64,000 nucleotides of DNA from Methylocapsa acidiphila B2 (GCF_000427445.1 NZ_KE386496.1:2495504-2559503); one strand, 5' to 3'. Positions 4,735 through 22,717 are shown, counted from the first letter of the stretch. Notes: generated from the letters alone by a model not told the origin. Numbers and translations are program-made.

Positions 4735-5073
4735 TCATGCTCGCTCTTCGCGCTTCGGCGGACGGTTCCAGAGGAGATGAAAACGCGATCCCTTCGCCTC
4801 GGCCTGGAACAGGTTGGCGCGGATCGGCTGGGTGAAGACCGGATCGTTGATCAGCAGCGAGACATACGCTCCGGCCTTCTCGCCGGTGCGCTTCCAGCCC
4901 GCGCCGACCTCGGGGCCATCGGCGCTCGCGCCGTGGTGAATCCGGAAGTCCGGCGCATTCTCGCCATCGCCAGAATTGGCCGGAAAGAGAGTGAGTTCGA
5001 CGTCGAGCGTGAGCGTGCGAAGTCCGCCGGAATAGCCGTCGGCCGTGCGTGTGAACGTGCCGATATGAGCCAT
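4735..5073 (-). CDS. DUF736 family protein (transfer operon copy)
   Basis: The 112-residue protein starts MAHIGTFTRTADGYSGGLRTLTLDVEL and contains NDFRI/GWKRTGEKAGAYVSLLINDP-type segments characteristic of DUF736, a small beta-rich family almost confined to conjugative elements. Its biochemical role is unknown. It sits between traF and the lytic transglycosylase in the same orientation, with an AAGGA-type ribosome binding site. A second DUF736 gene lies at 10508-10831, and the two share the N-terminal motif and the YV/YLS..DP core. Confidence 0.92.
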   Translation of the reverse strand: MAHIGTFTRTADGYSGGLRTLTLDVELTLFPANSGDGENAPDFRIHHGASADGPEVGAGWKRTGEKAGAYVSLLINDPVFTQPIRANLFQAEAKGSRFHLLWNRPPKREERA

Positions 5074-5108
5074 CGAGATGTCCTTTCCTTAGCGGTGTTG
5101 CGGCGGCA

Positions 5109-6172: not shown

Positions 6173-6423
6173 GATGCGTCTCCAAGGCTTTCGGGGAATT
6201 CGCGCGCGAGCAGTTCGCGCAGCATGTCGGCGACGGTGACGCCGCGCCGGAATGCGGCGACCTTGATCCGCCCACGCAATTCAGGCGTGACGTCGATCGT
6301 CAGACGAGCGGCAAAAACATCGGCCTTCGCCGGAGCGGCAGGCAGCGTTTCCGACGCCTTGATCCAGCTCTCGGGGTCGCCGGGGCGGGAAGCGAAACCG
6401 CGTCTTGAATCGCGGCCGGTCAC
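6169..6423 (-). CDS. Ribbon-helix-helix DNA-binding protein (ParB-position partner of ParA)
   Basis: The 84-residue protein ends in a typical RHH fold: ARLTIDVTPELRGRIKVAAFRRGVTVADMLRELLAREFP. It lies directly downstream of parA with a 4-nt overlap, where small DNA-binding partners of ParA occur. I infer that it binds a centromere-like or operator site and works with ParA in partition or in autoregulation. In annotated ICEs this gene is sometimes labelled ParB-like without having a ParB domain. Confidence 0.82.
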   Translation of the reverse strand: MTGRDSRRGFASRPGDPESWIKASETLPAAPAKADVFAARLTIDVTPELRGRIKVAAFRRGVTVADMLRELLAREFPESLGDAS

Positions 6424-7058
6424 CGGGCGATCCTCCCGACCTCGGCGGCGAGCGCTGCAATCTCGCGGGCGGCTGGACTGTTCGAATCGAGATCGGAGAC
6501 AAGGCGGCCAGTGCGAGCGGCATCGGCGAAGGCGACGCGCTGGCCGATTGTGGCCGCGAGGAGCTGCGGCTCGTGGCCGGCCAACATCTCGGCTGTCTCG
6601 CGAGCGATGATCGTGCGCGCATCGCAGCGATTGAGTACGAAGCGCGCGCCGAGCTGGGGGCGGAAGATCCGCGCCTCGTCGATCAGCTTCAGCGTCTCGC
6701 CGGAGGCCCAGCCATCGAATGGCGACGGTTGGGCCGGGATGAGGACCAGATCGGCTGCGAGCAGCGCCGAGCGCATCAGGCCGGCGACGCGGGGCGGGCC
6801 ATCGATGACGACATGGTCGGCGGCGCGAGCAAGCTCGGGCGCTTCGCGATGCAGGGTATCGCGGGCAAGGCCGATGACGCTGAAGAGCCGCGGGAGTCCT
6901 TCGCGCGCCCGCTGCTCGGACCAGTCGAGGGCCGAGCCCTGCGGGTCAGCGTCGATCAGAGTGACGCGCTGTCCTTGCCGAGCCCATTGGCCGGCAAGAT
7001 GCAAAGCCAGCGTGGTTTTGCCGACGCCGCCCTTCTGATTGAGGAGCGCGACGATCAT
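6420..7058 (-). CDS. parA: ParA family partition ATPase
   Basis: The 212-residue protein starts MIVALLNQKGGVGKTTLALHLAGQWA, with the deviant Walker A motif KGGVGKTT at residues 9-16, and continues with LIDADPQGSALDWSEQR and VVIDGPPRV, the A' and Walker B regions. It is a short ParA (type Ib-like) without an N-terminal HTH. It probably segregates or stabilises the excised circular ICE, or positions the transfer machinery. It overlaps repA and the RHH gene by 4 nt each. Confidence 0.95.
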   Translation of the reverse strand: MIVALLNQKGGVGKTTLALHLAGQWARQGQRVTLIDADPQGSALDWSEQRAREGLPRLFSVIGLARDTLHREAPELARAADHVVIDGPPRVAGLMRSALLAADLVLIPAQPSPFDGWASGETLKLIDEARIFRPQLGARFVLNRCDARTIIARETAEMLAGHEPQLLAATIGQRVAFADAARTGRLVSDLDSNSPAAREIAALAAEVGRIAR

Positions 7059-8215
7059 AGCGCCCCTCCAGGCTTCGCGGAGAAGGGAAGCTCTGATGCG
7101 CTCGACGAATCGGATTGAGATGTAGAAACGGTTTTACGGAAAGACGTGCGTTGCGCCTGGTCCTGATCGTATCGTCCCTCCGTCCCGGCATGCGGGTCGG
7201 AGTCGTTTTCCTCAGGCGTCGCGGCAGCAGTATAGTTAGATTCTTTGTTAGACTCTAAGTTAGGGGCGCGAATTTCATTTGTACGCCCGTGGCTTAAGTG
7301 CGATTCGGGTTCCCGATAGCACGAGGGTCCGGTTCCTGATGGCACGATAGTCTCGGTTCCCGATAGCACGAGCCCGTCCACAGGTTGTCCACAGGGCACC
7401 GGCTCGAAGGCGAGCAGTACGCGACCGCCTGCTTCGACTTCGACGCATAGGGCGTATCCGGGCAGCGGCTGGCGGCGGATGATGTCGCGCAGCTCGAAGG
7501 CGAAGCGCTTGAACGGCGACAAGCTGCCGGACTTCAGGTGAAGGTGGCGGAAGTCGAACCGCCAGCCGGCGCGCTGCCGGCCGCCATGCTTGCGGACCAG
7601 GCGATAGAGCCAACGCTCCAGTCCTCCCGTCAGAGTGAAATAGGCCCGGTCGATCGTCAGCACGAGCGCGTCGTCAAGGACGGCGCGGTAGAACCAGTCG
7701 GGCACGATCAGTTCGACGCCGCCGGGATGGCCATGGCAGTCGGCGCGCTCCGTCCATTCGTTGATCCAGGAGAAGCGGTGCATCCGCCGCTCAGTCGGCT
7801 GGCGGAGCGATGTCGCAACCGTGGTCGATTGCAGCCGATCGAGCGCCGCCTTGAGCCGCTGATAATCGCGCAGCGAGGTGCCGCGGCCGATAAAGGTCAG
7901 GATCTCATAGGGCGTCGCCGCCATCAGACGGGATGTGCGAAGGCCGACGTCACGCGCTTCCACGATCTGGGAGGCGGCCCAGATCAGAACATCGGCGTCC
8001 CAGATGGTCGCCATGCCATGCTCGGGTACGGCCTCGACCCGGATGGCGATATCGCCCGAGCGGAAGTCGATCGGCGTCGTGCGGTGGGACTTGGCGAGAC
8101 TGAAGAAGGGGTAGGCCATGAGGTCCTGAGCGTCTCGCGGCGCGAGATCGCCGGGGAGTGCGCGGAACAGCTCGAGCTGCTCCCGTTCCGATCTTGGGCG
8201 ATGTCGCGTCGACAT
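7055..8215 (-). CDS. repA: Plasmid-type replication initiator protein A (RepA/TrfA-like)
   Basis: The 386-residue protein opens with a short charged tail and then LMAYPFFSLAKSHRTTPIDF, ATIWDADVLIWAASQI, GRGTSLRDYQRLKAALDRL and LERWLYRLVRKHGGRQ, the two winged-helix blocks of the RPA-type initiators found on plasmids and ICEs. Residues after about 265 are poorly conserved and of low complexity; the DNA encoding them carries three iteron-like repeats, a DnaA-box-like site and an AT-rich tract. It starts 20 nt after the rdfS-like gene and overlaps parA by 4 nt. It probably allows the excised ICE to replicate. Confidence 0.9.
   Translation of the reverse strand: MSTRHRPRSEREQLELFRALPGDLAPRDAQDLMAYPFFSLAKSHRTTPIDFRSGDIAIRVEAVPEHGMATIWDADVLIWAASQIVEARDVGLRTSRLMAATPYEILTFIGRGTSLRDYQRLKAALDRLQSTTVATSLRQPTERRMHRFSWINEWTERADCHGHPGGVELIVPDWFYRAVLDDALVLTIDRAYFTLTGGLERWLYRLVRKHGGRQRAGWRFDFRHLHLKSGSLSPFKRFAFELRDIIRRQPLPGYALCVEVEAGGRVLLAFEPVPCGQPVDGLVLSGTETIVPSGTGPSCYREPESHLSHGRTNEIRAPNLESNKESNYTAAATPEENDSDPHAGTEGRYDQDQAQRTSFRKTVSTSQSDSSSASELPFSAKPGGAL
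7228..7290. other. AT-rich tract inside repA, possible unwinding element
   Basis: Within otherwise GC-rich coding DNA this stretch is strikingly AT-rich and contains three GTTAG-type repeats (around 7234, 7249 and 7260). It lies just beside the iteron-like repeats at 7308-7372. The arrangement is that of a theta origin, where initiator and DnaA sites flank an easily melted region. Assignment as a DNA unwinding element is inference. Confidence 0.45.
7308..7372. repeat. Three iteron-like direct repeats within repA
   Basis: The 18-bp unit GGTTCCCGATAGCACGAG occurs at 7308-7325 and again exactly at 7355-7372; a variant with three substitutions lies between at 7331-7348. Start-to-start spacing is 23 and 24 bp, about two helical turns, as in iteron arrays bound by RepA proteins. 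The repeats are read through by repA, where they encode repeated SGT/SCY-like tripeptides in the variable tail. The pattern is seen directly; binding by RepA is inferred. Confidence 0.7.
7385..7393 (+). promoter_or_regulatory. Candidate DnaA box next to the iterons
   Basis: TTGTCCACA differs at one position from the DnaA box consensus TTATCCACA. A weaker related site, CCGTCCACA, lies at 7374-7382, making a direct repeat of GTCCACAGG (7376-7384 and 7387-7395). The pair borders the three iterons. The motif is short, so its significance depends on the context. Confidence 0.5.
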
Positions 8216-8235
8216 GATGGGAGCGGCCGGAAGGA

Positions 8236-8520
8236 TCAGCGGCGCGGCTGGCCGGCGTAGGCCGGCGAGATGGAAGGATGGCGCTTGGCAGGGAGCACCT
8301 GACCGCCGCCCGGATCGGAGGTCGAGGCCTTGGCGCCGAGCTCGACCCAGGCCTGCAGGTCTTCCAGCCGATAGACGACGCGGCCGCCGAGCTTGGAATA
8401 GCGCGGGCCGGTGCCATAGGTGCGGTGCTTTTCGAGCGTACGCCCCGAAAGGCCGACGAAGCGCGCGGCCTCGGGCGTGCGCAGATAGCGTGGGGGAAAC
8501 TGGGTCGTTGCGGCGGACAT
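8236..8520 (-). CDS. rdfS: AlpA/RdfS-like winged helix-turn-helix protein (putative recombination directionality factor)
   Basis: The 94-residue protein starts at ATG 8520 behind a GGAGG; an upstream ATG at 8601 would only add sequence without family character. Its core, RYLRTPEAARFVGLSGRTLEKHRTYGTGPRYSKLGGRVVYRLEDLQAWVE, is a MerR/HTH_17 fold like excisionases. In the Mesorhizobium R7A ICE the gene in this position, RdfS, turns the integrase toward excision and is switched on by FseA. Here the fseA-like gene lies directly upstream and repA 20 nt downstream. Alternative role: repressor of the replication/transfer operon. The HTH call is strong, the RdfS role is inferred from synteny. Confidence 0.82.
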   Translation of the reverse strand: MSAATTQFPPRYLRTPEAARFVGLSGRTLEKHRTYGTGPRYSKLGGRVVYRLEDLQAWVELGAKASTSDPGGGQVLPAKRHPSISPAYAGQPRR

Positions 8521-8672
8521 GATCGAGCCTCCGTGATGCCTTGGAAGGCCGCCGGGCATGGGCGGCTGCTGGCGATCACGGTGGCGAAGAAAGGCCGGCA
8601 AGGGGGATGGCGAAGATGAGGGGCGCCGAATTCGCTACCCCGTGCGGGAGGGCGATCTTGGGCGCAGATCGG

Positions 8673-9261
8673 TCACTCTCGTCGGCGCGGCCCGAGGAGA
8701 TTGCGGTAGCCTCCGCGCATCATGGCAAAGCCGGTGCGCGCCAAACGGATGACCGTGTCGCGGATAGACGCGGTCTTCCAGGGTTCGGAGGCGATGCGGC
8801 TTGGGTCGAACAGAGCTTCGGCGATGGCCCGATAGCTGGCGCCATCGAGCCGGCCATCGAGCGCGCGCAAGGCCGCGACCAAACGATCGGCTCGACGAAT
8901 CGGAGGACGAATCGGAGTTGGCGGCGTTCGAAGCCGACCGTGAGCCATAAGTCGCCAAAAGCGCAATGCAGCCTCGGCGCGTTGCGGGGCGCTCGCGTCG
9001 AGGGGGACGACCGCGGCCAATGGCGCGACGTTCCCCGGCGGATCAGGCGCCCAGAGCTGGTGGATCGTCCCGTCTTGTCTGACGATCAGATGCGCACCAT
9101 CTTCGGCGTCACGCCGCACGACGTCGCCTGACAAGTCAGCTAACGAGATGGTCGTGGGTCTGGCGCCATCTGGCGCCGCCGTCAGGACGACGACAGACGC
9201 CAATTCGTCGGGACGCCAGAAGACGGGCGACTTATCAGCGCGTTGGTTTGGATCGGCCAGA
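8673..9261 (-). CDS. fseA: DUF2285 domain, downstream part of the two-frame FseA-like activator
   Basis: This frame, entered at about 9260, encodes LADPNQRADKSPVFWRPDEL and then a C-terminal DUF2285 with RFWRLMAHGRLRTPPTPIRPP, LRALDGRLDGASYRAIAEALF and IRLARTGFAMMRGGYRNLLG. DUF2285 is a helix-turn-helix variant that acts as activator or antiactivator in ICE control. The frame has no good start of its own: the ATG at 9407 would give a meaningless N-terminus that is an out-of-frame copy of the DUF6499 gene. It must therefore be reached by a +1 shift from the upstream frame. The fused product would be 255 residues. It is predicted to activate the rdfS-like gene downstream. Confidence 0.85.
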
Positions 9262-9441
9262 AAATCGCAACCCCCAACACCAGGCTGGGCCGGCGGCGCC
9301 GTCATCGGCCTCGGCGCGAGCGGTCTCGTAGGCCGTTCGATAGTCGGGGTTGCGCCGCAGGAACTCCCAAGCAAGGCCCGGGGCTTCCATGGTTGTGGCG
9401 TAGTCATAGGCGGTGCGAGACCGCCAGTCCTCCCTGAACAT
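9235..9441 (-). CDS. fseA: DUF6499 protein, upstream part of the two-frame FseA-like activator
   Basis: The frame starts at ATG 9441 with a GGAG 8-11 nt upstream and encodes MFREDWRSRTAYDYATTMEAPG, then AWEFLRRNPDYRTAYETA, the DUF6499 signature. Homologous sense would end at GLRF (residue 60); after that the zero frame reads an unrelated SGRSKPTR and stops. The +1 frame continues with LADPNQRADK, the conserved continuation into DUF2285. In the R7A ICE the equivalent pair (msi172/msi171) is joined by programmed +1 ribosomal frameshifting to form FseA. The short product may have its own role or merely reflect unshifted translation. Confidence 0.85.
   Translation of the reverse strand: MFREDWRSRTAYDYATTMEAPGLAWEFLRRNPDYRTAYETARAEADDGAAGPAWCWGLRFSGRSKPTR
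9258..9267 (-). promoter_or_regulatory. Putative +1 ribosomal frameshift site between DUF6499 and DUF2285
   Basis: On the minus strand the junction reads CGA TTT T CTG GCC. Reading CGA TTT as Arg-Phe and skipping one T puts the ribosome in the CTG GCC frame (Leu-Ala), which restores the family sequence exactly. The run of four T residues at 9264-9261 gives a place for the tRNA(Phe) to slip. The junction geometry is seen; programmed shifting is known for the R7A homologue, and its use here is inferred. A simple loss-of-function frameshift would look the same. Confidence 0.7.
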
Positions 9442-9530
9442 TGGTTTGTCTCCGCTTTAGCGAATCACCGGATGCCTTGGATTGTGACGGTCGATTTGTG
9501 TCGTCAATCGGGAGCTTTGCTGGACAGGAA

Positions 9531-9550
9531 TCGGCATAGCGTCATGCCGA
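9531..9550. promoter_or_regulatory. 20-bp dyad upstream of the fseA-like gene, candidate activator site
   Basis: The sequence TCGGCATAGCGTCATGCCGA has 7-bp perfect arms around a 6-bp centre. Its centre is about 99 bp upstream of the DUF6499 start. It has the length and symmetry of LuxR/TraR-family boxes, and in the R7A ICE the TraR quorum-sensing regulator acts upstream of msi172. The sequence does not match the classical Agrobacterium tra box, and no luxR or luxI gene is in this window. Confidence 0.4.
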
Positions 9551-9637
9551 AATCGGCTCGGTGGTTTTCAGGGTCGACGTAAAATCTCAAGCGTGCATTT
9601 GAGGGGAGGCTGACGTTGGAGCCGCCGCTCACCGCAC

Positions 9638-9907
9638 TCAGCGCGGCGATCGAAGCAGCTCGCGATAGCCGTGCTCGGTCAGCCAGCGAGCGCGCGCCAG
9701 ATGTGTTTCATGGGCTCTTCGGGCTCGAGCGGGCTCGCGCGCCGGGTCGAGGCCAAGCACGATGCGGGCGACCTCTTCCCAAGGCGCTCCCTCGGACGCC
9801 GCGTCGAGCAGCCGAAGATAGGTCGTCAGATGCATTCGATCATAATCGGTCACCTGCGCCTCAGACGGCGCAAAATCGGCGACCGACGAAGTGGGTGCGG
9901 GGCTCAC
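9638..9907 (-). CDS. qseM: QseM-like antiactivator (short DUF2285 protein)
   Basis: The 89-residue product starts with GTG at 9907 and contains DFAPSEAQVTDYDRMHLTTYLRLLDA, EEVARIVLGLDP and THLARARWLTEHGYRELL, the compact DUF2285 form known from QseM. In the R7A ICE QseM binds and blocks both TraR and FseA, keeping transfer off in most cells. It is divergent from the HTH gene at 10081, exactly as qseM is from qseC, and convergent with nothing; fseA follows on the same strand after about 200 nt. Synteny and sequence both support the name. Confidence 0.85.
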   Translation of the reverse strand: MSPAPTSSVADFAPSEAQVTDYDRMHLTTYLRLLDAASEGAPWEEVARIVLGLDPAREPARARRAHETHLARARWLTEHGYRELLRSPR

Positions 9908-9958
9908 GGTCTTGGGTTCCCTTGGCGAGGACCGGCGGTATTTAGGATATTAGCCGAA

Positions 9959-9975
9959 GAACTTTTCAAAAGTTC
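9959..9975. promoter_or_regulatory. Perfect palindrome in the qseM-qseC intergenic region
   Basis: GAACTTTTCAAAAGTTC has 8-bp perfect arms about a single central base. It lies 52-68 bp upstream of the qseM start, overlapping a possible minus-strand -35 (TTGAAC, 9977-9972) with a TAATAT-like -10 further on. This is a natural place for an operator controlling qseM. Confidence 0.5.
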
Positions 9976-9998
9976 AACGAGACAGAGTGGCAGGCGTC

Positions 9999-10038
9999 GA
10001 TACACATTATCCCGGCCATCGTCGATGATACATATTAT
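9999..10038. promoter_or_regulatory. Paired 12-bp repeats, candidate QseC operators
   Basis: GATACACATTAT (9999-10010) and GATACATATTAT (10027-10038) differ by one base and are 28 bp apart. They are followed by a pair of ATAGTG repeats at 10037-10042 and 10054-10059, just upstream of the HTH gene start at 10081. In the R7A ICE QseC controls both divergent promoters through operators in this interval. The repeats are seen; binding is inferred. Confidence 0.5.
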
Positions 10039-10080
10039 AGTGGATAAACCTCATAGTGTGTAACCGTCCAGCCTGTCCGC

Positions 10081-10338
10081 ATGGACATGCGGCGATTGGT
10101 TGGACGGAACGTGAAGCGCGTCAGGCTTGAGAAGGGCCTGACCCAGGAGCAATTCGCCGAGCGGTCTGGCTTCACCCAGCAATATCTGAGCGATCTCGAG
10201 CGCGGTCGCCGCAACCCGACGGTCGTGACCCTGTTCGAAGTCTCTCAAGCTCTCGGCGTCGAGCCCGTCACGCTGGTGACGCCGGATGAAGAGGCGCTGG
10301 CAGGAGACGCCCAACGTGTGAAGCCCAGGAAGAATTGA
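10081..10338 (+). CDS. qseC: QseC-like XRE-family controller protein
   Basis: The 85-residue protein is almost entirely a Cro/C1-type HTH: RRLVGRNVKRVRLEKGL, TQEQFAERSGFTQQYLSDLERGRRNPTVVTLFEVSQALGV. Its basic C-terminal tail ends PRKN. It resembles restriction-modification controller proteins, as QseC does. It is the only plus-strand gene of the ICE regulatory block and shares a 170-bp divergent control region with qseM. It probably forms a bistable switch that represses qseM in some cells and so permits excision. Confidence 0.83.
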   Translation: MDMRRLVGRNVKRVRLEKGLTQEQFAERSGFTQQYLSDLERGRRNPTVVTLFEVSQALGVEPVTLVTPDEEALAGDAQRVKPRKN

Positions 10339-10467
10339 TCAGCCGCAAACCGGAAAGGCGGAGAAACGCAATTCCGGCTGGCCGTGCTCCATCCTTGCGG
10401 CAATCGATTTCCTATTGGCGCATCCTGGACGCGGGGGCCGGCGTTCCTCACCGATTCGCAAGAGAAC

Positions 10468-10491
10468 CCCCGCCCGGTTTCCCGAGCGGGG
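10468..10491 (-). terminator. GC-rich hairpin after the second DUF736 gene
   Basis: CCCCGC (10468-10473) pairs with GCGGGG (10486-10491) and the stem extends inward around a TTT loop. It lies 17 nt past the stop of the minus-strand DUF736 gene. The following minus-strand sequence GGTTCTCTT has only a weak U-tract, so the terminator call is tentative. Confidence 0.5.
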
Positions 10492-10507
10492 CGTCGCAGC
10501 GTGCGGC

Positions 10508-10831
10508 TCATTCGCCGTTGGCCTTGCGGCCGCGGGACCAGATGAGGGTGTAGCCTTCGCCGTCCTCGTCGTCGAAGAGGTTGGCGTAGATCGGCGCGAT
10601 GAAGCTCGGATCGTCCAGCTTGACCGAGAGATAGTCGCGGCCCTCGTTGGAGCGCTTCGACCAGGCGGCCCCGATCTCGGCCCGGCCGACATAGATCCGA
10701 TGGCTGGGGGCGTTGTCGTTGGCTCGGTTGGTCTCGGGGACGATGCGAACGTTCCTGGTCTGGACGCTCAGGGTGACGATCTCGCCCTGGAACTCGCTGC
10801 CGGACTTCTTGAAGGAACCGATGTTGGCCAT
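10508..10831 (-). CDS. DUF736 family protein (second copy)
   Basis: The 107-residue protein starts at ATG 10831 (AAGGAG 9 nt upstream) with MANIGSFKKSGSEFQGEIVTLSV and contains GAAWSKRSNEGRDYLSVKLDDPSFIAPIYANL. It is clearly paralogous to the 4735-5073 product but belongs to the more widespread DUF736 type. Its role is unknown. An upstream ATG at 10867 would add 12 residues without family support. A long structured repeat lies at 10972-11090 in front of it. Confidence 0.93.
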   Translation of the reverse strand: MANIGSFKKSGSEFQGEIVTLSVQTRNVRIVPETNRANDNAPSHRIYVGRAEIGAAWSKRSNEGRDYLSVKLDDPSFIAPIYANLFDDEDGEGYTLIWSRGRKANGE

Positions 10832-10971
10832 GATGCTTCTCCTTGCCTGTTTCGAGCCCGCGACCACCGCGGCCTCGATGGCGATCGGGAAGCCGAAGGC
10901 GATCGACGACGCACCCGCAGCTCGGGGTCCCCGTCGCGCTTGCGCGATGGGGTGAGCCGGGCCGGAGCGCA

Positions 10972-11090
10972 GCGGAGGATGGCGGCGGTAGACTTTCTTG
11001 CCTCGCGAGGAATGGGCGAACCGGGGTCCCCGCGCGACTTGTCGCGTGGGGTGGAAAGCCCAGGGGAAGAAAGTCGATCCGTCCGCCGTT
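10972..11090. repeat. Long structured intergenic element, copy A
   Basis: GACTTTCTT (10991-10999) is the exact reverse complement of AAGAAAGTC (11067-11075), and GGCGG (10981-10985) pairs with CCGCC (11083-11087), giving an interrupted stem around a GC-rich inner hairpin. The outer sequence CGGAGGATGGCGG and the TTGCCTCGCG block recur at 17087-17172 (copy B). It lies between the truncated membrane gene and DUF736. It could be a leader RNA, a bidirectional terminator or a REP-like element. Confidence 0.6.
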
Positions 11091-11095
11091 GCGTC

Positions 11096-11644
11096 TCAGG
11101 CGATCGAGGCGTAGCCGGTCTTCGGCCAGATCAAGCCATGGAGAGGCCGTGTGGTCCGCGCCCCGAACAGCATCCTCGGGAGAAGACGTGGCGGACGTCG
11201 ATTGAGCAAGAGGCCCGGCTTTCCATGCGAAGAAAAGGAAACTTTGGCGTTCCGAAAAGATGACGTCACGACCCGGCAATCCGTACAAACGGCGACCCTA
11301 CCGACGGAACCTCTCCCTGTCGGCCTGGAGGCGCTGGCCAACACGAGCGTTGCTGGGACCGTGGCATTCCTGTTACGCGGACGAGCGGTCATCGCTCTGA
11401 AATCCAACCGACCTACGAGCGGCGTTCGCACCATTGCGAAGGCGATCCGCCCAATCGCCAGGGTCGCCGCGCCGGCGAGAACGCCAACAACAAGCGCGTC
11501 GATGACGCACGAGCCGCTGTGGAAGGCGGCGAGGCCTGCGGTCAGGCCCGCGAAGAACGGCGGCGCGTAGACTGCGAGCGTGAACAGCAGCGAACAAAAC
11601 AAACCGAGGCCAAAGACGCTCAGGACAATGCCGATGATGGTCAT
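11096..11644 (-). pseudogene. ICE-conserved small membrane protein, C-terminus replaced
   Basis: The first 77 or so residues (MTIIGIVLSVFGLGLFCSLLFTL, then FFAGLTAGLAAFHSGS, VVGVLAGAATLAIGRIAFAMVRTPLV) look like a polytopic membrane protein that I recognise from related ICEs. After RTPLV the expected further membrane helices are missing and the frame continues with arginine- and serine-rich sequence of no family character to a stop at 11096. I infer that the 3' half was lost when DNA was rearranged next to the cargo gene. It is also possible that this is an intact divergent gene. Confidence 0.6.
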
Positions 11645-11907
11645 GGTGATCTCCGTGACAAAGGGTCAAACGGGCGCACCTTCTACCACAACCGCGTTGC
11701 TTTCGTCAGAATAGCGGGCGCGGGGTGCAGTGGCAACAAGGTATTGAAACACGCCAAATCCGTAGAACCGAGTCTCCCACACACGACTACAGCGCGGAGG
11801 ATAGCCATCGATCTATAGCAATTTTTGGAACTGCCCGTTCGCTCCAAGCCAATCATCGAGGCAACGAAGCTATCGTTCGAGGTGCGCCTTGAATCATTGT
11901 ATGGCGC

Positions 11908-14900
11908 TCAGATTTCCTCGGCAGTTGAGAGGGGCGGGCTGGTTCCTTCACGTAAACCGGCTGCGGTTACATTTTTCTCGGCAGTGTAGCTTGGCTTCAG
12001 TTTCGGCCAAAGGTACCGGACCGCCCGCGCGTATAGTCGACCCAAAAAGCGGATGTCCAAATTCACGAAACACATCTCACCCGCCTTCGTTAGTGCCAGC
12101 CCTCCTGCCACTTCGGCCGGAAGTTCATCAGAAAGTCCCGGAAGTGCGGTCGCTTCAACAACCCAGTCCCGGCTCAACGCGCCCGCAAAGTCATCAGACA
12201 GAGTTCGCAAAGACTGGAGAAGGTGCTTCCGCAGCAACGTTTGCGGCTGAAACGTGTGGAGGCACATGGTAAACAACTCAGTCACTTGTGTGTTGTCTGC
12301 ATCAAACTTTGGGTCTCCTGCAGCCATCTCTAGGTTTTCTTGCCAATTGACGCACCCAACCAATCCCACCGCAGTCAAATAGCTCTGTATAGAGTCATGA
12401 AAGAATCGGACTGTGTGGGGATTTCCCGGGTCAGCTGGATTGACTTCTGCGGCTACGACGAGATCAGCTCCCATCAGCGCAGACAGAAGCTCTTTCGAGT
12501 CCTGCGAGGCGGTTGCAAATCGTATTCGCCGCTCACCAGTTTCCCAGTAGGTATCCAAGCAAAACTGCACGGCAGCGTCAGTACTCACCCCTTTGTTGGC
12601 CAAAATCTGATTAACGGCGGCGGCGTAAACATCCCGTATGGACTGCATTTCCGTTCCACGAGCCAAAAGTGCTAGACGAATCAGGATTGGCAAATAGGTG
12701 CCATCCTCGTCCCGACACGCGGCCCTGACCTCTGGAGTCAGATTGTCGAAGGACCTCCCGTAGGCCTTCACAAAATCTCTCAAAGTCTCATCGCTTAGCC
12801 TCTCAGGCTCGATCACTATCCACGATGCAGCCGCCTGCTCAATCACCCCAATGTGGGCTTTGCTCGGACGGGTAGATAATAGTAACGGGACTGTCATGCC
12901 GAAGGTGGCGAAATGCTCACGCAAAGTCTTAGCCGTGACTGTCGATTCTGTCAGCCCGTCAAGAACAAATAAAAATGCACCCGATCTTGCACTCGCTCGC
13001 AAGAGCGAGTCAGAGAAGCCGTCTTGTCCCAACGATTCTCGCATGCGGTCGTAGAGCGTAACTCCGTCCCCATCGCAGATAACGGGGATTGGCGAACGAG
13101 GATCTTTATTAGATCTTTCAACCATTAATCTTAGGACTTCTCGGACCAGCGCGCTCTTTCCACGACCGCCCGGAGCCTCAAGGATAATGCATGTCCGCTC
13201 ATCGGAACGGTCAGCTGAAAAGGCGTTGCATATCCGCTCTGCTGGTGAAGCAGCGTCCCCCTCTAAGTCTATGTTGCTACTTTCCTTGATTCTAATCGGA
13301 ACCGGCGTGTAACTTTCACCGTTCGCCTGCTGGCGCTCCCTCTCGATTCGATTCAGAAGTCGAGCGGAGTACGCAGCAAACAGCCTTCTTCGAACTGTGG
13401 GAATTGACGTGGCAAGACCTGCAAAGGGCCGGAATGGATCGAGGGGTTCAAGTTCTCTGAACAGCGTGGGCGACATTAGCCCCAGAACCGACCCCGCCAA
13501 AAGCGAGGCCCCGAGCAAGCCCACAAGGACGCCTGGATCCAAAAAGTCCTTTCCGACCCAAGGCGCGCCAATGGACCCAATGTAGAGGACGTAGCGGGTG
13601 AAGGTCTGCGGGCTTCCAGCAAGCCGCTTGGTGACCAGAGCGACAAAGCAGATGGCGAAAAAGACTAATACAGCGCGAAACCAGGGTCGGGCGAGAAGGG
13701 GCTCAGGATTCGTAAAGACAACTCCCGTCCAAGTCCACGATACGTTCGTGCCAAGCGGGTCCGAAAGAGTAACTCGGATCGAAGCCGCGCGGCCGTACTC
13801 GATGCGAGCCTTTGGGTCTGAGTCTTGCCCGGCGACGGCTTGAGCGAGAGGATACCTCTCTTCACCATTCGTCAGACTTGGCGTTACCCACTTCCGTTGG
13901 TGACCAGAGCCTTCTTCAGTGATAACAACCTGAAATGTTGCTTGGTCGTCTAGCAAACCCTCGACAGGTCTTGGGCCGAATTTGAGATCTCCGGAATCGC
14001 TGTTCGGTGCAAACGATATCGGACCGTCTGGAAGTGAACCAGTTGTGAGAGTGCTCCCTCCTAGTTGCAGCGCGGGACCAGGCATGCTCGCTTTCATGTC
14101 GATCAGGTAGAGCCCACCTCTCACATCGTTTGCGAACGCGTGCCGTCCATCGCGCAACGGAACAACGTCGGGCAAGTCAAGCTGATGTTGGAAAAGTGGT
14201 TGTCCGGAATTTATTGGCGCTCCTTGGCTTCGGTCCCAGTTAATGATTCCGCGCCCAGCGGCGTCATCCACATAGTTAATTAGCCAAAGGTGCCCAATGT
14301 CATCTGGCACAACCGTTGGCGCAACGAACCGGTTGACATCCTTCTCATCGTGACTCGCCAACAAGGCAAGGTGACCTATAGTTCCTGCTTCGAAATGGAA
14401 TGCAAAGTCACGAGCACGAACGACAAAGGAGTGACTCGTTTGGTCCGGGAATACTTCAACAACGCCGCCTTCCATAGGATCTTGCCAAGGTGCTAAATCA
14501 ACACCTAATTCGATCGTCTTCCCGACCTCTTGCACAGGTTTATCCCGCGGCAAATATATGACGTGCTGATCGTCGAGGTTTACCCCTAGCTGTGCAAGGT
14601 AACCGTCCTTTCCGAGAACTACTATGTTGTCTACAAGCGTATCCTGGAGCGCTGGGATTGGTGTGATTGAATTGGTGCCGGCGTCGAACAGCGAAGCCCC
14701 GCGCAAGGGTGACAGCGACTCCTTCCGGCCGCCCCAACGAGGGGTCGGGAAACCAATGGCCCTTGTGGCGTCAAATGGGCGTAGGGTCATTTGTGACGGC
14801 GGATTAAGCTCCAGCGGGAGGTAGCTAGCCGTCGCGGAGGCACTTTCGAGAGTCTTTTGGACGTCCACGAAATAGACAGAGGTGAGACCAGATCGGAGCC

Positions 14901-15690
14901 AAAAACTTCTAGCGTCGGGTGTGGGTATGATCTCAGTTATTCCATCGTGTCCTGTGGCCTGTAGTGCAGGGCCGAGAGCTAGTCTAATCGGTATGGCGCC
15001 TACGCGGGGATCTACGAGGTAGCAGTGCAGCTTATTGCCCGCATCGATAATGCCAGCGGTCACAAGCGTCGAGCCAACAACTCGTTCATCTCGATTACCG
15101 AGAAACTCAACCTTCCACGGTCCATCCAGTTTCGTGTGGCCATTCGCAAGGAAGTAGTAGTCATTCTTAAGCCAAACGGTTCCCTTCTCCTGACTAGGCT
15201 CCCGCTTTTCGGCGTGAATCCAGGTACCTTCCGAAGTTTGAAAAGTTCGAATCTGATCATAACCCGGCGGCAGTAGAAGTTCAGAATGGGAATCTCCTGA
15301 CGAGAGCCCTACCAAATATGCATTAGAGGGCGCTGAGGTAGTCCCGTCGTCTACAATTACAAGGCCACGGCGTTTGTCGCCGGCGGGAAAGATTCCCCAG
15401 CGGGGTTCGATGTTCGGCAGGAACGGTGTCTGCGCATTCAGCGTGCGCCCAGACGAATCGAGGAGCCAGACGCCCTTTTTTCCGACCTCCCAAGCCCATG
15501 CGTGTGTTCCATCCTCAACCGCACTGACGCGCCAGCGTCCGCCTCTTATCTTCGATACGAGCCATCCAGATTGAGAAAACGTCACCTTCTCCTTGTCGGA
15601 AGTCGCCGGTCGGCAAGCAGACAGGCCGATAAATGCCAAGAAAGCTACGGCTGCAACCGTCAGGCAAAGGAGACGTTTGTGGCGCGTCAT
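11908..15690 (-). CDS. Membrane-anchored NACHT/STAND ATPase with extracytoplasmic propeller-like region (candidate defence protein)
   Basis: The 1260-residue protein begins with a lipoprotein-type signal ending LSAC (Cys26). Residues about 35-640 are beta-rich, with recurring short WxLD/YLxD-type strands like a beta-propeller. Hydrophobic segments at 671-688 and 719-740 cross the membrane. The C-terminal part is a NACHT NTPase: Walker A in APGGRGKSAL (839-848), Walker B in FLFVLDGL (906-913), STRPS (939-943), and the NACHT winged-helix box VRFFHDSIQSYLTA (1094-1107). The topology suggests sensing outside and ATP-dependent signalling inside. No separate effector gene is adjacent, so the effector may be built in. 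GC is visibly lower than in its neighbours, indicating cargo. NACHT proteins in bacteria include antiphage systems; defence is inferred, not shown. Confidence 0.85.
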   Translation of the reverse strand: MTRHKRLLCLTVAAVAFLAFIGLSACRPATSDKEKVTFSQSGWLVSKIRGGRWRVSAVEDGTHAWAWEVGKKGVWLLDSSGRTLNAQTPFLPNIEPRWGIFPAGDKRRGLVIVDDGTTSAPSNAYLVGLSSGDSHSELLLPPGYDQIRTFQTSEGTWIHAEKREPSQEKGTVWLKNDYYFLANGHTKLDGPWKVEFLGNRDERVVGSTLVTAGIIDAGNKLHCYLVDPRVGAIPIRLALGPALQATGHDGITEIIPTPDARSFWLRSGLTSVYFVDVQKTLESASATASYLPLELNPPSQMTLRPFDATRAIGFPTPRWGGRKESLSPLRGASLFDAGTNSITPIPALQDTLVDNIVVLGKDGYLAQLGVNLDDQHVIYLPRDKPVQEVGKTIELGVDLAPWQDPMEGGVVEVFPDQTSHSFVVRARDFAFHFEAGTIGHLALLASHDEKDVNRFVAPTVVPDDIGHLWLINYVDDAAGRGIINWDRSQGAPINSGQPLFQHQLDLPDVVPLRDGRHAFANDVRGGLYLIDMKASMPGPALQLGGSTLTTGSLPDGPISFAPNSDSGDLKFGPRPVEGLLDDQATFQVVITEEGSGHQRKWVTPSLTNGEERYPLAQAVAGQDSDPKARIEYGRAASIRVTLSDPLGTNVSWTWTGVVFTNPEPLLARPWFRAVLVFFAICFVALVTKRLAGSPQTFTRYVLYIGSIGAPWVGKDFLDPGVLVGLLGASLLAGSVLGLMSPTLFRELEPLDPFRPFAGLATSIPTVRRRLFAAYSARLLNRIERERQQANGESYTPVPIRIKESSNIDLEGDAASPAERICNAFSADRSDERTCIILEAPGGRGKSALVREVLRLMVERSNKDPRSPIPVICDGDGVTLYDRMRESLGQDGFSDSLLRASARSGAFLFVLDGLTESTVTAKTLREHFATFGMTVPLLLSTRPSKAHIGVIEQAAASWIVIEPERLSDETLRDFVKAYGRSFDNLTPEVRAACRDEDGTYLPILIRLALLARGTEMQSIRDVYAAAVNQILANKGVSTDAAVQFCLDTYWETGERRIRFATASQDSKELLSALMGADLVVAAEVNPADPGNPHTVRFFHDSIQSYLTAVGLVGCVNWQENLEMAAGDPKFDADNTQVTELFTMCLHTFQPQTLLRKHLLQSLRTLSDDFAGALSRDWVVEATALPGLSDELPAEVAGGLALTKAGEMCFVNLDIRFLGRLYARAVRYLWPKLKPSYTAEKNVTAAGLREGTSPPLSTAEEI

Positions 15691-16020
15691 TTTTGCGCAG
15701 ACCTTCTGAACAGGGTATCCCCGACACGTTTAGGTCGGCTCCCGGACCCAAGGGAGAGAGTAGCCGAAGCTTTGGTACCCCGGAAGCGTCGAATGCGCGT
15801 CGGTCTGCGACCCTAGCCGAAAGTGTTAGCGGTCTTGCTTGCCTGGGCTTGGTGCTTCGGGGTGGTTGGCCTCGGAAGGCTTTTACTCGCGTAGCCGACG
15901 CTGAGAGCCGATCTTTGGGTCGGTTTGGGAACAGAGGCAGGAGGTGCACCGACATGCGACCCCGCGGGACGACTATCCAGAACGGCCTTTGCGCGCGCGG
16001 CGCGGGTGACGCGTCCGGAT
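15691..16020. other. 330-bp intergenic region upstream of the NACHT gene
   Basis: No coding frame with family character is present; the longest minus-strand reading (to 16063) is arginine- and proline-rich and overlaps two real genes. The region must contain the promoter of the NACHT gene, but I cannot point to convincing -35 and -10 boxes. The right edge marks the return to typical ICE composition. Confidence 0.5.
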
Positions 16021-16974
16021 CTATGATCGTGCCTTTGTGACGCGCCCCTCGCTGAAGCGCCACACCGGGATGCCGAGCATTCGTGCCTTGTCAGCGAGGT
16101 TCTCCTGAATGCCGGTGCCGGGGAACACCATGACCCCGATCGGCAGGACGTCTAGCATCGCATCGTTGCGCTTGAAGGGGGCGGCCTTGGCGTGCTTGGT
16201 CCAGTCGGGCTTAAAGGCGATCTGCGGCGCCTTGCGGTGGGCGGCCCATTTGGCGGCAATGAGTTCCGCGCCCTTCAGTGATCCGCCGTGCAGCAGCACC
16301 ATGTCGGGATGCTTGGCGTGGACGCGGTCGAGCTTGTCCCAGATCAGGCGATGATCGTTGAAGTCGAGCCCGCCGGTGAAGGCGATCTTGGGTCCTGCGG
16401 GCAATAGCACCTCGTTTTCGGCCCGGCGCCTGGCGGCGAGGAAGTCGCGGCTGTCGATCATGGCCGAAGTCAGATTGCGGTGGCTGACCTTCGATCCTGA
16501 GCGCGGCCGCCAGGCCGAATGCATATGGCGCTCGAACTGGTCGGCGGCCTGGTCGCGGAAGAACTCCATGCTGTTCCTGCGCTCGATCAGCGTCTGTCCT
16601 TCGGCGGTGAGGCGTTCGAGTTCGACCGAGCGGATCTCGGAGCCATCCTGCTCCTTCTGGCTGCGCTTCTGTGCCTGCTCGTTGTCGTCGAGCTCGCGCT
16701 CGATCCGGCTGGTGGCGCGGCGGAAGAGGTTGACGGTCGACCAGAGCAGGTCTTCGAGATCGGGTTCGAGGCGGGTGTCCGCAAGGGTGACGACCAGGGC
16801 GTCGAAGATGTCGGCCACGGCGCCAGCGATGGTGCTGCCTTCGGGAAGCGGTCTCGGGTCTGGTTCGTCCTGGAAGGGGCGATAGCCGTAGAGCTGGAGT
16901 TCGGCGAGGACGTGATCGGTCGTGGATGAGGTGTGCGGCGGCTCGTAGCCGGTGTCGTCGTGTTCGGTCGTCAT
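16021..16974 (-). CDS. DUF2493 (SLOG/YpsA-like) nucleotide-binding protein
   Basis: The 317-residue protein starts at ATG 16974 with AAGGA upstream; the alternative ATG 17019 lies in sequence without family support. The C-terminal domain reads KIAFTGGLDFNDHRLIWDKLDRVHAKHPDMVLLHGGSLKGAELIAAKWAA and ends with VMVFPGTGIQENLADKARMLGIPVWRF, the DUF2493 Rossmann-like fold related to YpsA/SLOG proteins that bind nucleotides or sense nucleotide signals. The N-terminal 200 residues are helical and specific to ICE members. Function is unknown; it lies in the same orientation as the Toprim gene behind it. Confidence 0.9.
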   Translation of the reverse strand: MTTEHDDTGYEPPHTSSTTDHVLAELQLYGYRPFQDEPDPRPLPEGSTIAGAVADIFDALVVTLADTRLEPDLEDLLWSTVNLFRRATSRIERELDDNEQAQKRSQKEQDGSEIRSVELERLTAEGQTLIERRNSMEFFRDQAADQFERHMHSAWRPRSGSKVSHRNLTSAMIDSRDFLAARRRAENEVLLPAGPKIAFTGGLDFNDHRLIWDKLDRVHAKHPDMVLLHGGSLKGAELIAAKWAAHRKAPQIAFKPDWTKHAKAAPFKRNDAMLDVLPIGVMVFPGTGIQENLADKARMLGIPVWRFSEGRVTKARS

Positions 16975-17086
16975 GGTGCTTTCCTTCGTCGGATCGACCG
17001 CGCCCATCGCGGCCTTCATGGTGACGAAAGGCGGCGGGCGGACCGGGCCTGCACCGCGCAGCGAAGCGGAAGCGGCCGAAGCAAAG

Positions 17087-17172
17087 CGGAGGATGGCGGG
17101 GGCCGGCTATTTTGCCTCGCGATGTAAAGGCGGGCTTGCCCGCCGACGGGAAATAGTCGGCCATCCGCCATT
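17087..17172. repeat. Long structured intergenic element, copy B
   Basis: This copy shares CGGAGGATGGCGG and TTTGCCTCGCG with copy A at 10972-11090. Its stem is GGCTATTT (17105-17112) with AAATAGTC (17151-17158), and an inner hairpin GCGGGCTTGCCCGC sits at 17130-17143. The stem differs from copy A yet remains paired, so structure is kept while sequence changes. It fills most of the 336-bp gap between the Toprim and DUF2493 genes. Confidence 0.6.
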
Positions 17173-17310
17173 GCCGGGCCGGGCCGTTTGCCGCAAGGGT
17201 CGCCCTCTCAGAAGGCCGTGGGCGCGGGCCTCTCCGACAAGGCTGGAAAGCACCACGCCCGAATCCGAGATGAGACCGGCACCCCGGCAGACATCATTTC
17301 CCGTGCCGCT

Positions 17311-18351
17311 TCATGTCGCCAATTCCATGAAACGAGCGACGTCTTCCGGAGCGATCTGCACCCGCAACGCTGCCCGTAACGCATCGATGCCGAGCGTGCG
17401 GAGATCCTCGTTGAAGTCACCCAGTCGTGGCGACAGGGCTATCGCCTCGATCCCAGCCTCGGTCGCCCGGTCGATCAGGCTCGCCATGGCGCCGTCCCCG
17501 GCCGGATCGTTGTCGCGGGCGATGTAGAGCCGGCGCAGTGTCGCGGGGAACAGGATGGCGGCGAGGTGTGCGGCCGAAAGAGCGGCCACCATCGGCATGG
17601 TCGGCACGACGCATCGAAGCGACAGCATGGTCTCGATCCCTTCACCGGCCGCCAGGCAATCGCGCCCCACATCGAAACGAACGGCGTTGCCCAGGAGGTT
17701 GCCCATCGCTCTTCTCGGCGTGTCGATCGCCGCCTTGTCCCGCCTCAATGGGTCGAGCCAGGTACGATGTGCCCCGGTGATCTTGCCGTCGAAATCGGTG
17801 ACGGCTGCGATCATCGCCGGCCAGGTCTCGGTCGGGGAATGCCGATCCGGACGGTAGTAGCAGCGTGGGTGGAAGCGGAGACTTCCGGTTCCGTGCAAAG
17901 CCGTAATGCCGCGTTTGCGCAAATACGCTTCCACGACTGTGCCCGTAATCGGCTGCGCCATGGCGAAAAGACGGCGTGCTGATTCCGGTGATCCCGCCGG
18001 TGCGGACGATGTTCGCCGGTCATGGTCTGGCTCCGGCGCCGATCTTGGTAGGCTGAGAAAGCGCTGAGCCTCATTGGCGACGTCGCGGAATTCGACAAGG
18101 CCGCGGTTCTCGCGGACGACGTCGAGGAGGTCGCCGTGATCGCCGGTTGCCGCGTCGGTCCATTTGCCGGCCGCACCCTTGCCGGATTCCAGTCCTTTCA
18201 GCCGGACGAATAGGGAGCGACCGGGCGCATTGCGAACGTCGCCAACCAGCCAGTACCGGCCCTCGCGGCGGCCGTTGGAGAGATAATAACGGCACACCGC
18301 TTCGGCATCGCGCGCGAGCCGGTGCGCCAGTTCGGCGGCACCGAGCGCCAT
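17311..18351 (-). CDS. Toprim-domain protein (DUF7146/primase-like)
   Basis: The 346-residue protein starts at ATG 18351 (or the overlapping GTG 18357) directly after the helicase stop. The N-terminal part has a CHC2-like/primase fold without clear zinc ligands (YYLSNGRREGRYWLVGDVRN, KWTDAATGDHGDLLDVV). The C-terminal Toprim domain is marked by CLAAGEGIETMLSL and RLYIARDNDPAGDGAM, with the conserved glutamate and the DxD acidic pair. Such proteins on conjugative elements resemble TraC/DnaG-type primases that prime the transferred strand in the recipient. This role is inferred. Confidence 0.88.
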   Translation of the reverse strand: MALGAAELAHRLARDAEAVCRYYLSNGRREGRYWLVGDVRNAPGRSLFVRLKGLESGKGAAGKWTDAATGDHGDLLDVVRENRGLVEFRDVANEAQRFLSLPRSAPEPDHDRRTSSAPAGSPESARRLFAMAQPITGTVVEAYLRKRGITALHGTGSLRFHPRCYYRPDRHSPTETWPAMIAAVTDFDGKITGAHRTWLDPLRRDKAAIDTPRRAMGNLLGNAVRFDVGRDCLAAGEGIETMLSLRCVVPTMPMVAALSAAHLAAILFPATLRRLYIARDNDPAGDGAMASLIDRATEAGIEAIALSPRLGDFNEDLRTLGIDALRAALRVQIAPEDVARFMELAT

Positions 18352-18353
18352 CG

Positions 18354-21300
18354 TCACGCCGCCGCCCGCTCGGCGACGCGCGCAAGCGGATAGCGTTCCA
18401 GCACCTTCGCCAGGATCGCCGGGCCGGCCGCGTCGGTCGGGACGAACATCCTGAGCTTCCACGAGATGATCTCATGGAACAGGCCGTAGGCTCGCAGCCG
18501 GTCACGCATGGCGTCGGTGAAGCCGGTCAGTTCGATGCGGTTGGCGCCCATGACGCGGACGCGGCGAAGCTGAAGCCCTTCGGCAAGATCGAGGATGGTC
18601 CTGCCATCCATAAGCGCGGTGAAGGCGTCATCGGCCGACAGATTCGACGGGCCGGTTTCAAGCGCGCTGGCCACCCATGGCGGGGATACCTTGCGACCGA
18701 CGATGCGTTCGCCGCTATCGGTCTGGAGCCGATAGACCCGGCTCGACTCGTTGGGGAGACGCTTCCAGATCGGCAGCAAGAGGCCGGCGACGATATGGAT
18801 CTCGCTGTCGGTGAATTCCGGCACATCGGCGAGTTCGGCCGCCCATGCGCGGGCGAAGCTTTCGCGGTCGGCTTCCCGCCAATGCGTCTGTGGCATCATC
18901 GCCAGCGGCATGGCGGGATGCTCCATCGGCCGGATGAGCCGTACGCGGCGTTCGACCTCGCCATCGTCGAGCATCAGACTCGGCGCGGTAACCTGCACGG
19001 CGGCGCGGCCCGACTGGCTGTTGACCAGCAGCAGGGCGCGGGGATCGGAGAGCCGGCCCAGCGCCTCGTCGAGCGTGACCGGTCGGTTGCGCTCGCGCCG
19101 CGTGATCGTCAGCAGGCGGGTTTCCGCCGAGGTGCCGCGGTGGGTGTAGATGGTCTGCCGGCCGGTGACGACGAAGCTCTCCGCCGTCAGCGTCTCCAGC
19201 CCGACGTCGTAGGTTCCCGATGCGATCGCGCCCTCGATACGGGCGGTCAGGAGCTGTTCGAACGCCGTGAACAGGATGTTCTGCAGGTCGATGGTCAGCG
19301 CCAGCAGCCGATTGAGGAAGGTGGTGATCGGCGGCAACTCGTCGCGGATGCCGTTGGTGTCGGTGAGCTTCAGCCCCGTTGCGTCCTCGAACGCGCCCAG
19401 CGAGCACCCTTCGACCTTGCCCATGACCAGCAGGACATAGAGCTGGCGCAACGCGTCGCGCGCGTAGTGGCTCTCCAGATTGTCCTCAGGCCTGAACAGG
19501 CCCTGGCCGCCGGTCTGGCGCTGGCCCTTGGTGATGGCGCCGAGCGTGTCGAGCCGGCGGGCGATGGTCGAGAGAAAGCGCTTCTCGGCCTTCACGTTCG
19601 TCGCGATCGGCCGGAACAGCGGCGGCTGCGCCTGGTTGGTGCGGTTCGTGCGGCCAAGCCCCTGAATGGCGGCGTCCGCCTTCCATCCGGCCTCCAGCAG
19701 ATAGTGGACGCGCAGGCGGCGGTTCTTCGCCGACAGTTCCGCGTGATAGGACCGTCCGGTGCCGCCCGCGTCCGAGAAGACGAGGATGCGCTTGGCGTCA
19801 TCCATGAACGCCTGCGCATCGGCGAGATTGGCCGAACCCGCGCGGTTCTCGACGGCGAGGCGATCGACGCCCTCCGATCCGCATCTGCGGATGATCCGGC
19901 GCGAGCGGCCCGTCACCTCGGCCACCATCTCCGTGCCGAAGCGCTGAACGATCTGGTCGAGCGCGCCATGGACTGGCGGCAGCGACACAAGCTTCTCGAT
20001 CAGCCGGTCTCGGCGGGCGACGGCCTCGCGGCTCTGCACGGGCTGGCCGTCGCGATAAACCGGCCGAGAGGAGAGATTGCCCTCGCTGTCGGTGAACGGC
20101 TCGTAGAGCTGGGTCGGGAAGCTGTGCGCCAGATAATCCAGCACGTATTCGCGCGGAGTGATGTCGACCTGGACGTCGCCCCATTCCTCGGTTGGAATCT
20201 CGGCGAGACGGCGCTCCATCAGCGCCTCGCCGGTCGAGACAATCTGGATCACCGCGGCATGGCCGGCCGTCAGATCGCGCTCGACGGCGGCGATCAGCGA
20301 GGGCGTCTTCATCGCCGTGATGAGATGGTTGAAGAAACGCTGCTTGGCGCTCTCGAAAGCCGAGCGGGCGGCGGATTTGGCCTGCGCGTTCAGCGTGCCC
20401 GTTTCGCCGGTGACGTTGGTCGCCTCCAGCGCGGCGTCGAGGTTATTGTGGATGACGCTGAACGCGCCCGCATAGGCGTCGTAGATGCGGATCTGCTCGT
20501 CGGTGAGCCGATGCTCGAGCAGCTCATATTCGACGCCCTCGTAGCTGAGCGAACGGGCCGCATAGAGGCCGAGCGCCTTCATGTCGCGCGCCAGGACCTC
20601 CATCGCCGCGACGCCCCCTGCCTCAATCGCCTCGACGAACTCGGCCCGCGTGGCGAAGGGGAAGTCCTCGCCGCCCCAGAGGCCAAGCCGCTGGGCATAG
20701 GCGAGATTGTGGACGGTGGTCGCGCCGGTCGCCGAGACATAGACAACGCGCGCGTTCGGCAACGCGTGCTGAAGCCGGAGTCCCGCACGGCCCTGCTGCG
20801 AGGCGGCCTGGTCGCCGCGTTCCCCTTTGCCGCCGGCCGCGTTCTGCATGGCATGGCTCTCGTCGAAAATGATCACCCCATCGAAATCGGAGCCCAACCA
20901 TTCGACGATCTGCCGGACCCGTGAAACCTTCTCGTCGCGCGCGTCGGTGCGTAGCGTGGCGTAGGTGGTGAATAGGACGCCTTGCTCCAAACGGATCGGC
21001 GTCCCCTGACGGAAGCGCGACAGCGGAGTCACCAGCAGCCGCTCCTGGCCGATCGCCGACCAATCGCGCAGGGCGTCCTCGATCAGCTTGTCGGATTTCG
21101 ACACCCAGACCGCGCGGCGGCGGCCCTTCAGCCAGTTGTCGAGCAGGATGCCAGCGACCTGGCGGCCTTTTCCGGCGCCGGTGCCGTCGCCGAGAAACCA
21201 GCCGCGGCGGAAGCGGACGGCGTTTTCAGCGTCGTCGGGCGCGGCCGACACGATGTCGAAGGTCTCGTCCACCGTCCACGATCCGGCGAGATGACCGCAA

Positions 21301-22700: not shown

Positions 22701-22717
22701 GAAGGGAACCTCGGGAG

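Follow-up and report, generated by a model that had tools for sequence, protein, structure and literature searches.

We analyzed a candidate immune receptor gene carried by an integrative and conjugative element (ICE) of Methylocapsa acidiphila B2, within a stretch of 64,000 nucleotides (GCF_000427445.1, NZ_KE386496.1:2495504-2559503) that is hereinafter referred to as the window. The gene encodes a protein of 1260 residues, P0001, that looks like a relative of the immune switches of animals and plants built as a membrane receptor, with a variable part outside and an ATP-driven switch inside the cell (Table 1). The intact gene reported in the original prediction was recovered and assigned to the minus strand, a detail that had been missing. 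The open reading frame (ORF) is not a chance occurrence because the open stretches in the five competing frames over the same interval do not exceed 120 codons, and none of 200 sequences simulated with a first-order Markov model is open for more than 345 codons. The low GC content noted previously is a property of the entire gene (0.53-0.58 by section, compared to ~0.65 in the surroundings) and extends to the third codon positions (0.553 vs 0.84-0.87 in three neighboring ICE genes). Predicted promoters (3, against 1.6 +/- 1.3 by chance) and terminators (4, against 4.5 +/- 2.5) are present at near chance numbers. The foreign GC and codon composition, together with the lack of close relatives, would be compatible with a decaying or functionless passenger gene, but given that all 1260 codons are open and the catalytic Walker A and Walker B motifs are intact, this is highly improbable.

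The architecture of P0001 is best seen in comparison with its homologue, which was detected with a DNA pattern for FFHDxIQxYL over genome contigs, an exact pattern that altered motifs escape. Among the 15 stretches retrieved, one, from a metagenome-assembled genome of Pseudobacter sp. (JAFIGX010000016.1; locus L081), encodes a homologue; the remaining 14 do not (tblastn, best E 0.42). The homologous protein consists of 1205 residues, has the same domain order, contains an identical FFHDSIQ motif, and shows 27% identity over P0001 residues 664-1225 (blastp, E 3e-45). The similarity starts at the first membrane helix: the membrane segment and the switch score 76 (local) or 96 (end-gap-free) standard deviations (SD) over shuffles, whereas the N-terminal parts (~635 residues in P0001 and ~575 in the homologue, within bounds that we chose) reach only 0.7 (local) and 0.2 (end-gap-free) SD and thus lack significant overall similarity. 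Remote kinship of the two N-terminal parts is possible because one sub-part, residues 30-300, scores 4.1 SD (end-gap-free) and 2.5 SD (local). The following layout is well supported: the N-terminus looks exported, the part behind it (~635 residues) is divergent, the membrane segment is conserved, and the switch at the C-terminus retains its key motifs across two phyla.

The hydrophobic stretch at the N-terminus of P0001 (residues ~4-26) ends with the sequence LSAC (23-26), the lipobox that had been noticed originally. Signal sequences of lipoproteins close with a lipobox of the pattern [LVI][ASTVI][GAS]C, to which LSAC conforms; the counterpart in the homologue, FCNC, is a poor fit. By this pattern, P0001 looks lipoprotein-like, with putative cleavage and lipidation. 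The long part that follows, with one cysteine in P0001 and two in the homologue, is probably located in the periplasm or on the cell surface, where it would sense an envelope event. Its predicted beta-rich character agrees with the original prediction, but the beta-propeller proposed there is not confirmed: the structure model of this part has a predicted local distance difference test (pLDDT) value of 36, a search to E 10 detected no Pfam match in the N-terminal part of P0001, and in the homologue Reg_prop appeared at E 6.5 only, with no significant match to Reg_prop or Y_Y_Y. The Foldseek matches of the model include several propeller proteins, at TM-scores of ~0.1; because of the low pLDDT, this fold search was set aside as evidence.

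Reg_prop-Y_Y_Y hybrid two-component receptors combine a large, beta-rich periplasmic N-terminal part with a membrane helix and a histidine kinase output. P0001 resembles these receptors in that a predicted beta-rich part directly precedes a membrane helix and is followed by a putatively cytoplasmic output, but this output is a NACHT-like switch rather than a histidine kinase, and propeller repeats are not recognized by profiles at significant E-values. An ordinary environmental receptor of this build, with a NACHT-like output, that senses a nutrient or another chemical and regulates metabolism or stress response, would account for the large beta-rich part, for a sandwich-like stretch (~585-659, in a low-confidence model) directly before helix 1, and for the marginal Reg_prop match of the homologue. 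We consider this alternative unlikely in view of the accessory, patchy distribution of the gene, the lack of significant Reg_prop or Y_Y_Y matches, and the cargo block around the P0001 gene, in which no regulator, transporter or enzyme partner gene was seen.

Hydropathy analysis delineates two strongly hydrophobic segments in P0001 (~664-694 and ~715-744), in agreement with the membrane segments initially placed at ~671-688 and 719-740. We propose three helices, at ~669-689, 694-713 (weak) and 719-741; the structure model includes helices at 669-689, 694-708 and 719-739, with pLDDT below 50 in that region. Between the two strong segments, where the alignment with the homologue requires two gaps, both proteins share Y700, L702, I704, S706, P710, W711 and G713, and the flanking charges fit out-in, in-out and out-in helices with the switch inside. 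Taken together, charge distribution, residue identities and helix prediction fit a three-helix membrane segment with a cytoplasmic C-terminal switch. The two-helix topology implied originally would, after an exported N-terminus, leave the NACHT part outside the cell, and was rejected because a P-loop ATPase would end up where there is no ATP.

The C-terminal region contains the three motifs identified previously, Walker A, Walker B and the box at 1094-1107, which we place at residues 839-846, 905-912 and 1096-1107 (FFHDSIQSYLTA), respectively. The Walker A sequence matches the P-loop pattern [AG]xxxxGK[ST], with A in the position where G is more common; the homologue has APGGQGKS. The hallmark of NACHT ATPases is a Walker B motif of the form hhhhD followed by a small residue; this is the case in P0001 (FLFVLDGLTE, D-G), but the homologue carries D-D (YLFIIDDFSE), so the hallmark is not constant across the two proteins. 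The Pfam NACHT family (PF05729) was not among the matches listed for P0001 at E 10, nor was it detected at E 1e-5 in its genome, and the homologue, at 20.1 bits (E 5.9e-4), stays below the cut-off of 26.7. Because the curated cut-off is not reached, we refer to the switch as NACHT-like, after the nearest named kind of STAND (signal transduction ATPases with numerous domains). Sub-threshold profile matches and fold comparison of a low-confidence model support the assignment of the P0001 switch to the STAND ATPases. The NACHT module of the original prediction stands as a STAND/NACHT-like domain, without membership in the Pfam family, and the NACHT fold did not prove absent from profile searches and structure prediction. 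Comparing profiles with those of individual P-loop proteins gave no useful information, with a weak match to L098, which we take to be RadA, exceeding that to the NACHT-like L096. Searches of PDB sequences produced no relevant match (one chain at E 1.1, and none in a second search).

Table 1. Features of the P0001 gene and of the surrounding element (window positions)
Feature	Positions	Strand	Basis
Complete P0001 gene; 1260-aa signal-ectodomain-membrane-NACHT-like protein	11908..15690	-	ORF prediction, open-frame controls
Signal sequence with lipobox LSAC, residues 1-26	15613..15690	-	hydropathy, lipobox pattern
Putative extracytoplasmic part, residues 27-663	13702..15612	-	beta-rich prediction; 1 Cys in residues 27-660
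Membrane segment, residues ~664-744	13459..13701	-	hydropathy, charges, model, alignment
Juxtamembrane region, conserved and positively charged, residues 745-828	13207..13458	-	alignment, charges
STAND/NACHT-like NTPase and winged-helix-like part, residues ~829-1148	12247..13206	-	profiles, fold comparison
Walker A APGGRGKS, residues 839-846	13153..13176	-	motif pattern
Walker B AFLFVLDGLTE, residues 905-915 (AFLFVLDG 905-912, E915)	12946..12978	-	motif pattern
FFHDSIQSYLTA box, residues 1096-1107	12370..12405	-	pattern; FFHDSIQ identical in homologue
C-terminal tail, residues 1149-1260, mostly helical in model	11911..12246	-	ORF, model
Cargo block without alignment to any of 40 related ICE loci	11697..16035	.	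blastn
DUF2493 (YspA-like SLOG, PF10686) ICE gene bounding the slot	16021..17019	-	profile match, family survey
DUF736 ICE gene past the opposite slot boundary	10508..10831	-	profile match
ICE backbone within the window	3798..28532	-	SLT, DUF736, S26/TraF-like, DUF2840, ParA, RepA, RovC-like, Toprim, strawberry-notch helicase, ParB-like, ArdC

Searches of sampled genomes, some of which recur between samples and which include the genome of the query, show that both proteins are rare. P0001 was detected in one of 298 genomes and in one of the 15 within its genus; in two further samples, its own genome was accompanied by two weak matches each (3/385, E 0.002-0.003, membrane stretch only; 3/398, E 0.002-0.008, one with stops). 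A two-member profile identified 3 of 244 sampled genomes of the homologue's family (itself and two at E 1e-5 to 4e-5, from the P-loop to Walker B only), one of 178 genomes, and one of the six genomes of its genus. Being missing from the five other genomes of the genus and rare in the family, the homologue is accessory, so the scenario in which homologues are found only as housekeeping genes of the core chromosome did not materialize. Direct protein searches of plasmids and phages revealed no relatives of either protein. In viral contigs, three protein searches retrieved 1, 93 and 6 pattern-matching stretches, none of them confirmed, and motif scans retrieved none; a protein search of genome contigs gave 14 stretches, again with none confirmed. 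By these searches, P0001 appears close to an orphan. The homologue gene is adjacent to a divergently oriented gene for a Fic-domain protein (5822-7318 of L081, ~270 bp from the homologue start), a possible partner or a chance neighbor.

The P0001 gene lies between backbone genes of the ICE, in the variable slot that the original prediction had assigned to it. To the left of the window, profile searches identified TrbE-type, T2SSE (TrbB-like), TraG-type and DUF3363 genes, the last of which we take to be relaxase-like; the presence of these genes indicates that the element is conjugative in kind. The features of a Tn4371-type ICE, namely a type IV secretion system, a coupling protein, a relaxase-like gene and the backbone order, are all present, and the order is shared with related loci where the sampled DNA reaches. 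With the Tn4371/Mesorhizobium-type ICE backbone, as described in PMC8627217, the element has in common DUF736, DUF2840, the traF-like peptidase, the transglycosylase, traG and the trb genes; it differs in carrying a 4.34-kb block with the NACHT-like gene.

Among 298 genomes of the same family, 90 contain the DUF2493 gene, and we compared 40 of these loci (L036-L075), mostly the best-scoring ones, with their downstream DNA (six end early at a contig end, after 3.5-10.2 kb). The core order, widespread if not universal, is DUF2493, slot A, DUF736, slot B, RovC-like, helix-turn-helix, RepA, ParA, DUF2840 and S26. The DUF2493 gene is found in all 40 loci and, at more than 60% identity, DUF736 and RovC-like genes in 27 each, RepA in 24 and DUF2840 in 19, counts that fall below 40 in part because the sampled stretches end. 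None of the 40 loci aligns (blastn) anywhere within the block listed in Table 1, whereas 18 align up to positions 11,689-11,696 and 17 align from 16,036-16,046 onward, and tblastn detected no P0001-like stretch in any of them. Since the alignments stop at both edges, the block comprises ~4.34 kb, with the P0001 gene as its only large gene. In the 25 measurable loci, 256-3,141 bases separate DUF2493 from the backbone ORF that follows, compared to ~4.4 kb here. The only repeat pair that brackets the block is an imperfect inverted pair of 27 nucleotides, located in the flanking backbone.

As single-gene cargo of a conjugative element, with an exposed part that would be the first to meet a mating partner, P0001 could be an exclusion device that recognizes the mating apparatus or an incoming related element and, through its switch, blocks or kills on contact. 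However, none of the 40 loci compared contains a protein match, whereas exclusion factors are usually backbone genes. In addition, inspection of the ORFs in the 16-kb neighborhood of the homologue (with most ORFs not profile-searched) revealed no conjugation genes. Accordingly, we regard such a role as rather improbable.

Across both slots of the related loci, there are 111 coding-like ORFs of at least 150 aa, 56 of which were scanned (21 of 22 in slot A and 35 of 89 in slot B). Among the best 25 of 302 PADLOC families, the matches include GajB, type I restriction genes, a CD-NTase and a 4TM effector, SIR2 and HerA, Argonaute/SIR2 models and SoFic; the only defense gene placed among these is GajB (Gabija), which in L047 lies beyond DUF736, that is, in slot B. 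Judging from ORF positions, most of the other PADLOC-matching cargo appears to belong to slot B as well. The same 56 proteins also include transposases, a LysR regulator, a phosphatase and flavin reductases. When ten cargo proteins were scanned singly (eight of them from slot A, the others from L062, where no DUF736 boundary was detected), three of the ten had matches at the E 0.001 threshold, all partial: LmuA (7.8e-11), PD-T7-5 (8e-6) and mREase IV (3.4e-4). In light of these cargo scans, the description of the site as a usual place for defense cargo suits slot B better than slot A, where the P0001 gene resides; that the latter is a variable cargo slot stands.

The bacterial NACHT proteins described in PMC12169576 and PMC10907252 consist of an N-terminal effector, a central NACHT domain and a C-terminal sensor; the C-terminal position of the sensor had been noted in the original prediction. 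P0001 shares with these bNACHT antiphage proteins and with antiviral STANDs the NACHT-type Walker A and Walker B motifs and a predicted winged-helix-like part, but departs from this order: the switch is C-terminal, with only ~110 residues beyond it, the variable, apparently exported part is N-terminal, the helices are in between, and no effector is recognized. If the order of PMC12169576 nevertheless applied, the switch or the tail of P0001 would detect phage products in the cytoplasm and the N-terminal and membrane parts would be a very large effector; this seems quite unlikely because the divergent part is N-terminal and the ~110 residues past the NACHT/winged-helix-like part leave little room for a sensor. 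A related case is provided by the STAND targets of Thiohalocapsa diversity-generating retroelement (DGR) 3, NACHT proteins one of which is predicted to be periplasmic and for which a sensing role has been proposed; the NACHT and lectin domains are predicted to share one side of the membrane, either the cytoplasmic or the periplasmic one, and the passages considered do not describe a cytoplasmic NACHT preceded by an ectodomain at the N-terminus (PMC10907252). Membrane or periplasmic placement of parts of STAND or conflict systems is mentioned in PMC10907252, PMC8195603 and PMC7159879. Among the best matches listed from the open-licence literature, by title and abstract opening, and in the passages considered of these three papers and PMC12169576, the combination of an ectodomain at the N-terminus and a cytoplasmic NACHT at the C-terminus was not found.

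Of the readings considered, the one that we favor, at about even chances, is that P0001 is a single-gene, membrane-spanning, NACHT-like receptor for envelope sensing, most likely defense or exclusion cargo of the ICE; a role in phage defense is plausible but hypothetical. The trigger might be damage to the envelope, contact with a mating partner, phage adsorption or DNA entry. The signal would pass via the three helices to the cytoplasmic switch, which would exchange ADP for ATP and oligomerize. The output would be made by P0001 itself, most likely by its helices, which would assemble into a complex that disrupts the membrane or signals; a membrane output appears likeliest because neither a catalytic effector domain nor a partner gene was seen. 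Several observations weigh against this interpretation. The effector is its weakest step, for which the remaining candidates are the helices, the tail at the C-terminus or a partner from the host. The middle helix is weak, and the insertion scale does not itself call it. Slot A holds mixed cargo with weak, partial defense-like matches. Finally, no PADLOC family matched P0001 at E 10; NCBIfam gave no match at E 10 either, and the single PHROG match has an E-value of 0.15.

More tentatively, P0001 and its homologue might represent a class of cell-surface bacterial NOD-like receptors (NLRs) in which the executing module, three helices and a NACHT-like switch, is constant, whereas the sensor, N-terminal and exported, is exchanged or diversified; spread between phyla by mobile elements, such receptors would sense phage or mating contact before entry and disrupt the membrane without a separate effector. 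If the reversed order across the membrane is real, the NLR switch is also used in outside-in receptors, a task for which plants and animals employ separate receptor families, and the question arises directly whether a periplasmic trigger can activate a STAND ATPase. P0001 and its homologue, the only members known so far, combine related switches with ectodomains that lack significant overall similarity, and make up a natural domain-swap pair.

Several minor observations pertain to the element and its relatives. Transposase genes flank the ICE segment (864-3703 and 29376-30142 of the window; HTH_Tnp_1 match at 864-1751, the rest by eye). An Arm-DNA-bind_3 match at 30129-31400, where the catalytic integrase domain was not matched, may correspond to the ICE integrase or a remnant thereof. 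To the left of the window, the same ICE contains a series of four ORFs (Multi_ubiq, a small one, a Mu-type transposase and ThiF; L094, 11227-16554), a bacterial ubiquitin-like cassette apparently split by the transposase, and thus further cargo. In the related loci, slot B, between the DUF736 and RovC-like genes, has contents that match Gabija and, by inferred position, CBASS (cyclic oligonucleotide-based antiphage signaling system), type I restriction, SIR2/HerA and others, and is a rich place to seek new defense genes; in one of these loci (L072, 3908-7630), it contains an ORF of 1241 aa near ORFs that look SIR2-like by eye.
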